64,000 nucleotides of DNA, taken from Bacteroidota bacterium (GTDB lineage: Bacteria; Bacteroidota; Ignavibacteria; Ignavibacteriales; Ignavibacteriaceae). Location: NCBI GenBank assembly GCA_021824145.1, contig JAKALM010000001.1, positions 310,001 to 374,000 of the forward strand, in the 5' to 3' direction. Below are positions 10,488 to 21,565 of this stretch, one piece after another (position 1 is the first letter of the stretch; every line of letters starts with the position of its first letter). The position numbers were made by a program, and so were the translations under genes. The notes under the pieces were generated by a model. The model did no database searches and had not been told where the DNA came from. It saw nothing but the letters and a program-made list of their open reading frames with translations.

Positions 10488-11927
10488 TTAAATCGTTTCA
10501 AACCGTATCCAATTGGCGCGGCTTTTTTCGGAATAGGGGGCGCCTGCAGTAAAAATAACCAAATCACCTTCTTTAACAAGTCCGTTTTCCAGTATTAGTT
10601 TTTTTGCTTTATCGATTGCAATATGTTCCTTATCAATTTCTTCCATGAAGATAGAAGTAACTCCCCATCTTAAACAAAGATTGTTCATAGTATCAAAGCT
10701 GTTTGAAATTGCGATGATTTTTGACTTAGGCCTGAACTTGGCGAGGTTAATTGCTGTTCTTCCCTGCAAAGTAAATACAACTATCGCCGCTGCATTTACC
10801 TGTCTGCTCATTGATGTAATTGCTCTGCCGGTTGAATCAAAAAGATTTTCTTCAAGCTTGGTTGGAATAATAAGCTCATCGTCTTTTAGCGGTGAAAAAT
10901 ATTGACCGGCATTTTTAATTATCTCATTCATTATTGAAATAGTTTGAACTGGATATTTTCCCATCGCAGTTTCGCCGCTTAACATTACCACGTCGGTTCC
11001 ATCGAGTACGGCATTTGCAACATCAGATGCTTCTGCACGCGTCGGAATCGGGTTGTGTATCATCGATTCAAGCATTTGAGTTGCTGTAATTACAAGCTTG
11101 CCGATAGAATTGCATTTTTTAATAATACTTTTTTGAATAATCGGAACTTCCTGCGGAGGAAGCTCAACGCCAAGATCGCCTCGCGCAACCATTATTCCAT
11201 CAGATGCTTCAAGAATTTCTTCGAAATTATCTACAGCTTCTTTCTTTTCTATTTTTGCAATTATCGGTTTCGAAACATTTTTACTTTTAAGCCATTCACG
11301 AAGATGTAAAATATCTTTTGCAGATCGGACGAAAGACAGTGCGATAAAATCAACCCTAAACTGAAGTGCAAACTCAATATCATGGAAATCCTTTTCAGTT
11401 ACGGAAGGAGTTGATAAATTCATTCCCGGAAGATTCATTCCTTTTTTTGGGCGGAGAATCCCGCCGTCTTCAATTTCACAAACAACGGAATTATTTTTCT
11501 TGTCAATTATTTTCAGCCGGATAAGTCCATCGTCGATTAATACTGTTTCACCAATTTTCGAATCTTGCGGAAGCGGTTTGTAAGAAGTTGAAATTAAATC
11601 CTTTGTCCCTATTACTTCATTAGTTGTTATTTCAATTTTATCCCCGGAAAAAATTTCGATTTCAGGCCGGCTTAATTCTCCGATTCTAATTTTTGGACCT
11701 TGCAAATCCATGAGCACAGCAAGAGGTGTTTTTTCTTCAACACAGGCTAAATTAATTTCGTTAAAAAGTTTTGAGAAAGAATTGTAATCACTGTGAGAGA
11801 AATTTAACCGCACGCCGTCCATGCCTGCAAGAATCATCTTCTCTATTATTTCGGAAGAATTTGTTGAAGGTCCAAGAGTGCATAATATTTTTGTCTTTGC
11901 AAAATTATCTTCAGCTAAAATATTCAT
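10488..11927 (-). CDS. pyk: pyruvate kinase
   Basis: This 479-residue enzyme transfers phosphate from phosphoenolpyruvate to ADP in the last step of glycolysis. The N-terminal TKILCTLGPSTNSSEIIEKM and DGVRLNFSHSD are typical. The family signature IIAKIEKKEAVDNFEEIL is followed by VARGDLGVELP and TQMLESM. The C-terminal effector domain is present (AAIVVFTLQGRTA, then FTAGAP), so the length is normal for a bacterial type. Its ATG (11927) overlaps the stop of the upstream Lon-family gene by 4 bp, so translation is likely coupled. The GGAAA just before the start lies inside that gene. Confidence 0.97.
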   Translation of the reverse strand: MNILAEDNFAKTKILCTLGPSTNSSEIIEKMILAGMDGVRLNFSHSDYNSFSKLFNEINLACVEEKTPLAVLMDLQGPKIRIGELSRPEIEIFSGDKIEITTNEVIGTKDLISTSYKPLPQDSKIGETVLIDDGLIRLKIIDKKNNSVVCEIEDGGILRPKKGMNLPGMNLSTPSVTEKDFHDIEFALQFRVDFIALSFVRSAKDILHLREWLKSKNVSKPIIAKIEKKEAVDNFEEILEASDGIMVARGDLGVELPPQEVPIIQKSIIKKCNSIGKLVITATQMLESMIHNPIPTRAEASDVANAVLDGTDVVMLSGETAMGKYPVQTISIMNEIIKNAGQYFSPLKDDELIIPTKLEENLFDSTGRAITSMSRQVNAAAIVVFTLQGRTAINLAKFRPKSKIIAISNSFDTMNNLCLRWGVTSIFMEEIDKEHIAIDKAKKLILENGLVKEGDLVIFTAGAPYSEKSRANWIRFETI

Positions 11928-17068: not shown

Positions 17069-18415
17069 TTAACTTCTAATGTTATCTAAAAGTTCTTCAG
17101 TCTTAACTTCCATTAATTTAATATTGCCTTTGCTTTCAACATTTAATCTAATAATTGGTTCAGTGTTAGACATTCTTAAATTAAATCGCCAGTCATCAAA
17201 CTCAACGCTAACTCCGTCAAGATGGTCAATCTTTCCACTGGAATATTGTTTTTCAATTTCTTTAATTTTTTTTGCCGGATTATCGATTGTTGAATTTATT
17301 TCACCTGAGCATGGATAAGCTTGAATCATTTCTTCAACAAGCAGTGAGAGTGGTTTGTTTTCTTCAGACATTAACTGCATAATTAATAAGAATGGAATCA
17401 TTCCGCTATCGGAGTATGCATTATCTCTAAAGTAATGATGAGCTGACATTTCGCCGCCGTATACTGCATTTACTTCGCGCATTTTTTGTTTGATGAATGC
17501 ATGTCCGCTTTTTGAAAGGACAGGCATTCCACCGCTGTTTTTTACAACCTCAACAGTGTTCCAAATTAATCTTGGATCGTGTACAATTTTTTCTCCAGGA
17601 TTTTTTTTCAAGATTGATTTTGCCAGCAAACCAACGATGTAATAACCTTCAATAAAATTTCCTCTTTCATCAAAGAAAAAGCATCGGTCATAATCGCCAT
17701 CCCATGCTACGCCAAGATCAGCTCTATTTGATAACACTGCATCAATAGTTGCTTGCCGATTTTCTGGTAGAAGAGGGTTTGGCACGCCATTAGGAAAATC
17801 TGAATTTGGTTCAATAAAAATTTTTATCATTTTTATTGGCAAGTTATTTTCAATTGCATTTAATGCAAGACCGGCGCAACCGTTCCCGGCATTTACAACA
17901 ACTTTCAGCGGTTTTATTTTTTGTGGATCATAGAATTTTTTAAGATTGTTTATGAAATCATTCATTACATCTTTTTTAGCAATATTCCCTTTGTTTGGAT
18001 TAGACTTCGGTAAGTCATTGTTTAAGATCATTTTTTCAACTGTGTTTAGACCAGAATCGTATCCAATAGGAACAGAACTTTTTCCAACAAATTTCATCCC
18101 ATTGTATTCGGGTGGATTGTGACTGGCTGTAATCATAATTCCTCCATCAGCATTTAAAGCTGGAGTAGCATAATAAATCATCTCTGTTCCGCATAATCCA
18201 ATATCAATTACATCGGCACCGAAATCATTGAGGCCTTTAATAAGTGCATTAGAGAGTTCTTCAGAAGATTTTCTTACATCATGCCCAATAACAACTTTTT
18301 TAGCATCAATAAATTTTCCGTAAGCTAATCCAATTTTATAAGCTAGATCTGGATTAAGTTCGGAAGGCACTTTCCCTCTAATATCATAAGCTTTGAAACA
18401 ATTAATCTTATCCAT
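17069..18415 (-). CDS. manB: phosphomannomutase/phosphoglucomutase
   Basis: This 448-residue alpha-D-phosphohexomutase interconverts hexose 1- and 6-phosphates for sugar nucleotide synthesis. The phosphoserine loop is TASHNPPEYNGMK, the Mg loop DGDYDRC, the sugar-binding loop GGEMSAHHYF, and the C-terminal phosphate-binding loop RMSNTEPIIRL. N-terminal KAYDIRGKVPSEL is typical of the AlgC/ManB group. All four domains are present at normal length. The gene is alone and convergent with the DUF2911 gene. Preference between glucose and mannose cannot be read from the sequence. Confidence 0.93.
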   Translation of the reverse strand: MDKINCFKAYDIRGKVPSELNPDLAYKIGLAYGKFIDAKKVVIGHDVRKSSEELSNALIKGLNDFGADVIDIGLCGTEMIYYATPALNADGGIMITASHNPPEYNGMKFVGKSSVPIGYDSGLNTVEKMILNNDLPKSNPNKGNIAKKDVMNDFINNLKKFYDPQKIKPLKVVVNAGNGCAGLALNAIENNLPIKMIKIFIEPNSDFPNGVPNPLLPENRQATIDAVLSNRADLGVAWDGDYDRCFFFDERGNFIEGYYIVGLLAKSILKKNPGEKIVHDPRLIWNTVEVVKNSGGMPVLSKSGHAFIKQKMREVNAVYGGEMSAHHYFRDNAYSDSGMIPFLLIMQLMSEENKPLSLLVEEMIQAYPCSGEINSTIDNPAKKIKEIEKQYSSGKIDHLDGVSVEFDDWRFNLRMSNTEPIIRLNVESKGNIKLMEVKTEELLDNIRS

Positions 18416-18637
18416 TCAAACTCCAATTTTATAAATTTTGAAAACAAATTGAAAAATTATTCAAGGAATTTATTCTGAATTACTTTAAGAATTATTTATA
18501 GATATTTTTGAAAACAAAGATCAGAAAAAAAAAAATTCGGTTCAATTAGGATAAAAATTTTTAGAGAATTATTTTTCAATGGACTTTTTAGAAAGAACTT
18601 TTTACTTTTAACAATTAAAAATATAAGGGAACATAAT

Positions 18638-18946
18638 ATCGCTACTAAAGATACTGTTAAATGGCACTTCGCAAAATGCAACAATTCAAAATGTAACTCT
18701 ATTTTCTTGGTGAATCCTGAAGAAACACCAGGGGAATTAGGGTTTATTTGTCCGGAATGCAGTTCTAAAACTACAACGTCGCATATTGTTCAATGTTCAA
18801 GTTGTAAAACAATTTTGAACTTTGTACGTGCAACTCCAAATGAAGAAAAAGTAGTTTTCAGCGTTCCTAAATGTTCACATTGTGTGGGCACTGTTGAAGA
18901 TGAATGGGAAATAGAACCTCTGTATCAACCAGATTCATATATTTAA
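18638..18946 (+). CDS. small four-cysteine-pair zinc-ribbon protein, apparent AUC start
   Basis: The reading frame has cysteine pairs CNNSKC, CPEC, CSSC and CSHC, enough for two zinc ribbons. It is probably cytosolic and of unknown function. The first conventional start is TTG at 18707, but starting there removes the first cysteine pair. The open frame extends back to 18512 with no ATG, GTG or TTG. An AAGGGA ribosome binding site at 18625-18630 is spaced 7 bp from ATC at 18638, giving (M)ATKDTVKWHFAKC as a natural N-terminus. I therefore propose ATC as start (102 residues). A recent ATG-to-ATC mutation or a read error is the alternative. Confidence 0.65.
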   Translation: MATKDTVKWHFAKCNNSKCNSIFLVNPEETPGELGFICPECSSKTTTSHIVQCSSCKTILNFVRATPNEEKVVFSVPKCSHCVGTVEDEWEIEPLYQPDSYI

Positions 18947-19378: not shown

Positions 19379-21565
19379 ATGAAAAACTTATTCACAAGAT
19401 TAAGCATTTATGCTGTTGTTATTTACACAATTATAATAGCAGCAGGATGTTCATCTACTTCCCAAATGCAGCAGAGTTCAAACAATAGCCAAAGTAATTA
19501 TAGCTGGCTAAATTTAGATACTGTTAAAGCTGGGAAATTTGATACTGGGAAAATGTGGACATTTGATTACCCACCATTAGATTATTTTCAAAAAGAATAT
19601 CATTTTAGACCTTCTGAAGAATGGCTGAACAATGTTCGGATGTCAGCACTGCGTTTTGCAAACTATTGCTCAGCTTCATTTGTATCTGCAGATGGATTGG
19701 TAATGACAAATCATCACTGCGGAAGAGAATCTGTAAGTAAAGTTACTAAACCAGGAGAAGATCTTTTTGACAATGGTTTCTATGCAAAAACTTTAGAAGA
19801 TGAAAGACCAGTACCAGGATTATACGTCGATCAGTTAGTATTAATAAAAGATGTAACAAATGAAATTCAGTCAGCAATGGATAAAGGAAAAACTCCAGAA
19901 GAAAAAGTTGCTGATCAAAGAAAAGCAATGCAGGAACTTGAAGCTAAAGAAGGAAAAGAAACAGGGCTAAGAATTCAGATTGTTACTTTTTATAATGGCG
20001 GAAAGTACGCGTTGTATGGATATAAAAGATATAATGATGTTCGTTTAGTATTTTCACCTGAAGCTTCTCTTGGATATTTCGGTGGAGATTATGATAATTT
20101 TACTTATCCACGTTATGATTTGGATTGTAATTTCTTTAGAGTTTATGATAATGGAAAACCATTAAAGACCGAACATTATTTTCATTGGAGTCCAAATGGT
20201 GCTGAGCCCGGCGAACCAGTTTTTGTAGTTGGAAACCCTGGAAGAACTGATCGTTTGAAAACTGTTTCTCAATTGGAATTCTTACGCGATGTTCAATATC
20301 CAAGAACATTAGATATGCTAAATGATTTAGTAAATCTTTATACAGATTTAATCGAAAAACATCCTGAAAGAAAAGCTGAACTTCAGAACCGTTTATTTGG
20401 TTTTTCAAATTCTCAAAAAGCATATACTGGAATGCTTGCTGGCTTGAGAGATCCTATCTTAATGCAAAAGAAAATTGACTTTGAAAACAAATTTAAAGAA
20501 GCAGTTAAAGCAAACAGTGAATTAAATTCTAAATACGGCGGTCTATGGGATAAGATAGCTGATATTCAAAAACAGATGGAATCAATCTCTAATGAATATT
20601 TTGCAATCAGCACAAATCCATATACAAGCTCACAATATTTTATGATTGCCGGCGAAGTTATTCATCTTGCAAACCAATTGAAGCTTCCTGAAGATCAAAG
20701 ATCTGAAGATTATAAAGGTGCAAAACTTGATTCTACTATCAATGAAATTATTCCGGCAAAATTTGATACCGAAATGCAGGATGCAATGTTGAAAGATCAA
20801 GTTGCTAGATTAGAAAAATATCTTGGAACAAATAATGAAATAGTTGCAAAGATGACTGCTGGAAAGACAGGCGAAGATGCAGTAAATTATATGTTAAGCA
20901 ATTCATATTTAACTAGCACTGATAAATTGAAAGAATTGATTAGCCAAGGGCCTGATGCAATTTTGAATTCAAACGATCCTTTCATTTATTTTATGGTTCA
21001 CACAGATGCAAGAAAAACCGAGCTTCAGAATAAAATAAAAGAATTGTCATCAGCAGATGCAACATATTCGCAAGAGTTGGGTAAAGCATTGTTTGAAGTT
21101 TATGGAACCTCAATTCCACCAGATGCAACATTTACTTTGCGTATTTCCGATGGTGTTGTAAAAGGTTATCCATACAATGGAACAATTGCTCCGCCGTTTA
21201 CAACTTTTTATGGATTGTATGACAGATATTATTCTTTCGATAAGAAATATCCTTATAATTTACCAAAGGATTGGCAAAATCCTCCAGCAGATTTCAAATT
21301 AGAAACTCCAATGGATTTTGTTGCAACCAACGATATAATCGGCGGTAATTCAGGCAGTCCAGTTATTAATGAAAAAGCACAAATTGTAGGTCTTGCTTTT
21401 GACGGAAACATCGAAAGCTTGCCTGGCAATTTTATATTCACAACCGAAGCAAATAGAACTGTTGCTGTTCATTCCGCTGGAATGATGGAAGCAATTAAAG
21501 ATTTGTATAAAGCTACACGTTTAAGTGATGAGCTTCAAGCAGGAAAAATAGTATCTGACAAATGA
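19379..21565 (+). CDS. S46 family dipeptidyl-peptidase, lipoprotein
   Basis: This 728-residue enzyme has a lipoprotein signal peptide with lipobox IAAGC near residue 24, so it is membrane anchored. The S46 chymotrypsin-like core is visible, with catalytic His in TNHHCGRESV (residues 112-113) and nucleophile Ser658 in GGNSGSPV. A helical cap lies between them (about 330-600). S46 members (DPP7, DPP11) release dipeptides from the N-termini of oligopeptides in Bacteroidota and relatives. The FDGN segment after the Ser resembles the DPP7-type pocket with Gly, which would favour hydrophobic P1 residues; that is inferred. Length is normal. A strong terminator follows. Confidence 0.92.
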   Translation: MKNLFTRLSIYAVVIYTIIIAAGCSSTSQMQQSSNNSQSNYSWLNLDTVKAGKFDTGKMWTFDYPPLDYFQKEYHFRPSEEWLNNVRMSALRFANYCSASFVSADGLVMTNHHCGRESVSKVTKPGEDLFDNGFYAKTLEDERPVPGLYVDQLVLIKDVTNEIQSAMDKGKTPEEKVADQRKAMQELEAKEGKETGLRIQIVTFYNGGKYALYGYKRYNDVRLVFSPEASLGYFGGDYDNFTYPRYDLDCNFFRVYDNGKPLKTEHYFHWSPNGAEPGEPVFVVGNPGRTDRLKTVSQLEFLRDVQYPRTLDMLNDLVNLYTDLIEKHPERKAELQNRLFGFSNSQKAYTGMLAGLRDPILMQKKIDFENKFKEAVKANSELNSKYGGLWDKIADIQKQMESISNEYFAISTNPYTSSQYFMIAGEVIHLANQLKLPEDQRSEDYKGAKLDSTINEIIPAKFDTEMQDAMLKDQVARLEKYLGTNNEIVAKMTAGKTGEDAVNYMLSNSYLTSTDKLKELISQGPDAILNSNDPFIYFMVHTDARKTELQNKIKELSSADATYSQELGKALFEVYGTSIPPDATFTLRISDGVVKGYPYNGTIAPPFTTFYGLYDRYYSFDKKYPYNLPKDWQNPPADFKLETPMDFVATNDIIGGNSGSPVINEKAQIVGLAFDGNIESLPGNFIFTTEANRTVAVHSAGMMEAIKDLYKATRLSDELQAGKIVSDK

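Follow-up and report, generated by a model that had tools for sequence, protein, structure and literature searches.

An AUH start codon in a small, putative zinc-ribbon gene of the order Ignavibacteriales, compared with infC and other genes with non-canonical starts

Conserved non-canonical start codons are already known in infC, pcnB, sigR, cvfC1 and ccpN. In Escherichia coli, the output of pcnB is limited by its AUU start. Very few bacterial genes that start with codons other than AUG, GUG or UUG have been characterised, and both the autoregulation of infC and the repression by IF3 of sigR, which starts with GTC, are documented (PMC5472188). In Staphylococcus aureus, cvfC1, which has a conserved AUU start, encodes a protein of 61 residues with a putative zinc finger; the AUU of cvfC1 and the AUA of ccpN come with extended Shine-Dalgarno (SD) sites, and in poor medium non-canonical starts in this species reached about 10% of what AUG yields (PMC13009471). 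A study in a cell-free system found that IF3 prefers Watson-Crick and G/U pairs at the third base and that more IF3 led to less product from weak third-base pairs including AUU/CAU, although AUC/CAU is not named in the available text of that study (PMC10158994). Given the genes described in PMC13009471 and PMC5472188, the first-pass annotation of our locus took too narrow a view in treating infC as the main known case of AUC and AUU starts.

The window that we analysed is a stretch of 64,000 nucleotides from an Ignavibacteriaceae genome (contig JAKALM010000001.1, 667 kb). It contains a small gene with four Cys pairs at 18638..18946 (+), which we call the zinc-ribbon gene and which comprises 102 codons with an AUC start at 18638-18640, 101 further residues and a TAA stop at 18944-18946. 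The reading frame is open from TGA 18509-18511 up to this TAA. As the first-pass annotation had described, there is no in-frame ATG, GTG or TTG in 18512-18706, so that TTG 18707 is the first start in the sense of table 11, and the Cys codons at 18677 and 18692 precede it. The ATC stands in the context T-ATC-G, and the SD site AAGGGA at 18625..18630 (+) was also found as claimed, 7 nt ahead of ATC 18638. The divergent neighbour at 17069..18415 (-), which we take to be a phosphomannomutase-type gene, and the downstream neighbour at 19379..21565 (+), presumably an S46-peptidase-type gene, flank homologues too; both lie beside the gene in at least 81 of 110 loci, a lower bound because the loci are short. 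With one neighbour divergent and the start of the other lying 430 nt downstream in the window, the zinc-ribbon gene looks like a unit of its own.

Homologues of the protein, taken from the ATC on, were found in 117 of 146 related genomes. The start codon was read in 116 of these (110 + 6), leaving out G065 with its 28-residue piece at a contig end; two alignment rows were corrected by eye (L063, L093) and two were placed by eye (L200, L204). ATH occupied the aligned first codon in 101 of the 116 genomes, as ATC in 83, ATA in 14 and ATT in 4, which supports the AUC start proposed in the first-pass annotation. Because ATC, ATA or ATT stands at the homologous place in so many genomes, a sequencing error is not the cause of the missing ATG, and a read error at 18638 is excluded in the same way, as the genomes of relatives carry ATH too. 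Among 56 public records, which are largely from the same genomes, the first matched codon was ATC in 47 and ATA in one, and the match in the remaining eight begins later than the start codon. As for the codon usage, 172 of the 1685 Ile codons in 41 window ORFs (10%) and 143 of the 725 within the homologous genes (20%) are ATC, compared with 83 of 101 codons at the start position. When we mapped the start codon on a phosphomannomutase tree of 95 rows, using the 90 rows with a start state, leaving out five without one and including one g50 genome only, it had changed at least 13 times with a single ATG tip, G138. The third base thus varies but rarely becomes G, and Ignavibacteria seem to have retained this weak start signal over a very long time.

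The 16S rRNA of the window genome ends with GGATCACCTCCTTTCT, a canonical anti-SD. An SD core of at least 4 bases within 18 nt precedes 100 of the 101 ATH starts, at a distance of 4-10 nt that is 5-6 nt in 78 of them. Such a core was found in 14 of 41 window ORFs, a number that may be low considering that the starts of these ORFs were set mechanically, and 32% of mRNAs in Ignavibacteria were calculated to have a functional SD (PMC10783764). Over 98 aligned starts, G prevails at -10 (86%), -9 (85%) and +4 (90%), as does T at -1 (90%). By eye we also spotted a putative -7 box in the aligned upstream regions, at 18603..18610 (+) and roughly 30 nt ahead of the start; it was not counted, and we take it to be the TAnnTTTG-type promoter element of Bacteroidota. 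With this box as the promoter, the 5' leader would measure some 20-30 nt and would have no room for an upstream start. Another conserved element, TTTTTCAATGGACTTTTT, lies at 18572..18589 (+), about 60 nt ahead of the start; it was aligned by eye, appears by eye as TTTTTnCATRG in other families, and is a possible -33 region or operator. It has one exact match in the genome and, at up to 2 mismatches, 11 matches vs 7 for the reversed control. A promoter element common to other genes was considered for TTTTTCAATGGACTTTTT and rejected, as the ten other near matches do not show the same arrangement. RNA structure over 60 nt around the start was nothing striking, with a mean folding energy of -5.1 kcal/mol for 97 ATH starts vs -4.3 kcal/mol for 93 phosphomannomutase starts.

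Fifteen of the 116 genomes lack ATH and are counted against the AUH reading: five of genus g50, four of g20, two of g7 and four single genomes. The first-pass annotation had suggested looking for ATG at the same place in relatives; it stands exactly there in two genomes, G133 and G138, both of genus g50. In the same genus, ATG directly follows a stop in G136, and G108 and G115 have in-frame ATGs farther away. In genus g20 (L048, L049, L050 and L053) TAGGAG is kept and neither ATH nor a canonical codon is found at the right distance; a common ACG-AAA lies 9 nt after GGAG in L049, L050 and L053, and at about this distance in L048, which makes ACG a possible start codon of these homologues. The two loci of genus g7 (L066, L068) have TATCG out of frame and then an in-frame ATG, with AUC-GAA-UGA overlapping the AUG. 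Genomes G035 and G099 have no clear ATH at the start, and the G099 locus, L103, looks altered there. The copies L202 (G110) and L205 (G102) are broken by in-frame stops. Judging from L202, L205 and L103, parts of family f2 seem to be losing the gene.

Outside the order, an in-frame TTG stands ahead of the conserved part in all six outgroup homologues (6/6), and hence a weak start need not be AUH. A class sample of 294 genomes held six carriers, all of family f13, and a weak partial match in G281 (E 1.4e-4) within a frame of 514 residues. In a phylum sample of 395 genomes we obtained seven weak partial matches in frames of about 800 residues.

As controls, we read the start codons of other genes. 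Phosphomannomutase, read in the same genomes by alignment to its first residue, starts with ATG in 93 of 96; of the other three, one has GTG and two have a different codon. For pyruvate kinase, with matches in 54 genomes, a canonical codon was present near the N-terminus in 28 of 30 loci read. Two pyruvate kinase loci, L371 (G001) and L372 (G007), both of the window's genus and homologues of the window ORF 10488-11927 (-), show ATT behind GGAG, and this seems to be a lineage-bound AUU start. The start of rpsU was TTG in all 15 loci caught by the pattern, of 30. For infC, the positive control, 36 of 38 loci had ATH preceded by an SD-like site (ATC 32, ATT 3, ATA 1); of the other two, L115 has ATC without the required SD-like site and L124 has just a TTG-ATA, 15-16 codons ahead. 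In six of the 36 ATH loci of infC there is a canonical codon as well, no more than nine codons from the conserved part. We also compared contig G000:C27 with 520 kb of G001:C23, where 122 of 203 homologous pairs have a common canonical start near the N-terminus; among the other 81, three have ATH and an SD-like core in both genomes, namely the zinc-ribbon gene, pyruvate kinase (ATG in G000) and a codon inside a conserved coding stretch. This comparison is a rough control because many of the 81 pairs are partial matches.

The initiator tRNA was searched with an anticodon-stem pattern, GGGCTNNNAACCC, to which the test is confined. The window genome has one match, with anticodon CAT, confirmed as tRNA-Met of the initiator type, and 13 genomes together have 29 matches, 11 of them with CAT. 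Within this pattern, a special initiator tRNA that reads AUH was considered and rejected; of the 18 non-CAT matches, the three examined, L331, L333 and L347, hold no tRNA according to ARAGORN.

The AUH start itself is strongly supported by genome comparison. Taken together, ATH in 101 of 116 genomes, the SD sites, the changes on the tree, the control genes and the start type of infC argue that the zinc-ribbon gene joins infC as a second case of this start type and that selection keeps its start weak.

In an alignment of 52 sequences, eight Cys residues in four pairs, His49, Glu69 and the start-codon column were all invariant. The first pair, C14 and C19 (18677..18694, +), is located upstream of TTG 18707; the pairs C38/C41, C53/C56 and C79/C82 with His49 (18749..18883, +) are putative zinc ligands. 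The protein is slightly acidic, with a calculated pI of 5.3, 9 Lys/Arg and 13 Asp/Glu, and its structure model is of fair confidence, with a pLDDT of 80 and a pTM of 0.62, but weak over the 10 residues at the N-terminus and the 20 at the C-terminus. The window protein reached no curated cut-off in Pfam or NCBIfam, and the Pfam search over 52 members gave a best E of 8.8e-5 (DUF7129) among the matches listed, 25 of 58 families. A sequence search of the PDB gave a best E of 0.019 and no assignment, Foldseek gave a best E of 0.29 with no match at E 0.001 or below, and VIA-align placed 0 of 336 chains at Z 2. In these searches the protein matches no family or fold. The IF3 family was absent among the matches listed for the protein in the Pfam and NCBIfam searches, and the idea that the gene is infC was discarded, as infC sits at another locus of the same genome (G000:C7). 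Based on the conserved residues, the protein is probably zinc-binding, probably with two zinc sites. Considering its size, its cysteines and the weak start, our guess at the likeliest role is a low-copy regulatory or adaptor protein. We found no paper that links Ignavibacteria to non-AUG start codons, and among the matches listed in the literature on zinc ribbons, Ignavibacteria and Melioribacter, no title concerned the zinc-ribbon gene.

The reading that we prefer, with a probability of roughly 0.8, is that of a protein-coding gene whose AUH start would be used as fMet with the help of the SD site and whose output would be kept low by IF3. The ordinary initiator tRNA would decode the AUH codon, AUC in the window, as fMet even with a mismatch at its third base. 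The SD site, 4-10 and mostly 5-6 nt upstream on a presumably short leader, would bring the 30S subunit to this codon, and the SD helix would offset the third-base mismatch. IF3 would reject most of the AUH complexes, leaving the output low, and the output would rise when IF3 proofreading falls. The reason for the low output is something that we infer.

The AUH start could also be real and yet be a fixed low-output setting, with no regulation through IF3 levels, and this resembles what has been proposed for pcnB. The AUU and AUA starts of S. aureus, at about 10% of the AUG level in poor medium, speak for such a setting, as does cvfC1, on which the medium had no effect (PMC13009471). However, infC has the same start type in this order, and a change in IF3 should reach both genes, so we consider a fixed setting unlikely, if a serious alternative. 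In the opposite direction, the protein might itself influence which start codons are selected, perhaps as a binding partner of IF3 or of the 30S subunit, and thereby control its own AUH start. This is a quite improbable extension of the preferred reading; if true, there would be a second IF3-like feedback loop, with two partners in initiation fidelity in the order, both started by AUH.

If translation began instead at an upstream in-frame ATG, GTG or TTG, such as the NTG overlapping GGAG, the ATH would be an ordinary Ile codon. A canonical codon does lie somewhere upstream in frame in 61 of the 101 ATH homologues and within 12 codons of ATH in 51, which we counted against the AUH start; the nearest one is at -4 in 23 of 101, mostly as NTG overlapping GGAG. 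However, in the other 40, with the window included, there is none in frame between the upstream stop and ATH, so that the window sequence already excludes such a start, and the upstream stop is at most 6 codons from ATH in 25 of 101. The SD spacing suits ATH, and if this were an ordinary Ile codon, the usual share of 10-20% would not give ATC in 83 of 101 cases, which makes an upstream start very unlikely. Genus g7, with its out-of-frame ATCGA adjoining an in-frame ATG, brings to mind initiation at an AUG outside the frame of the gene and a programmed frameshift into it. We hold this to be extremely unlikely, given that the putative promoter box would leave a leader of only 20-30 nt and that SD and ATH are spaced as for initiation. 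Lastly, automatic annotation would have the protein begin at TTG 18707, the first table-11 start in frame. As the first-pass annotation had pointed out, this would clip the first Cys pair, and C14 and C19 are invariant in 52 of 52 aligned sequences; no canonical codon occurs between ATH and this pair in 92 of 101 homologues. The TTG is not kept as a start by orthologues either, the other point raised there: the Leu codon in question is TTG in just 12 of 110 homologues, TTG, GTG or ATG is found at this codon or the next in 23 of 110, and no SD core lies ahead of it. The probability left for TTG 18707 is close to negligible.

Starting thus from AUH as the preferred reading, one order keeps this codon in a gene unrelated to infC, with a third base that shifts repeatedly and rarely to G, which lets selection on a weak start codon be studied as a natural experiment. 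The family is probably truncated or missing in databases, because gene callers that allow only ATG, GTG and TTG would clip or miss it. The comparison also gives a recipe for finding more such genes: a third base that is free except for G, a strong SD and a stop just upstream.

In the features that are visible in the sequence, the zinc-ribbon gene fits the genes with conserved non-canonical starts. One close likeness lies within the same order, where infC, at 36 of 38 loci, also has AUH behind an SD at the usual spacing. Unlike infC, the product is not IF3, and direct autoregulation is impossible unless the protein acts on initiation. It differs from pcnB as well, since the proteins are unrelated. 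Like sigR of Streptomyces, which is held down by its GTC start, it is a gene other than infC with a non-canonical start; the codon is AUH here vs GUC there, and the control of sigR by IF3 is experimental, whereas ours is inferred (PMC5472188). With cvfC1 and ccpN it shares a conserved AUH and a strong SD, and cvfC1 is in addition small and a putative zinc finger; these genes belong to another phylum, and their starts were shown by ribosome profiling and reporters, whereas the start here is read from sequence (PMC13009471). Next to these systems, the depth across a whole order and infC as a twin case stand out.
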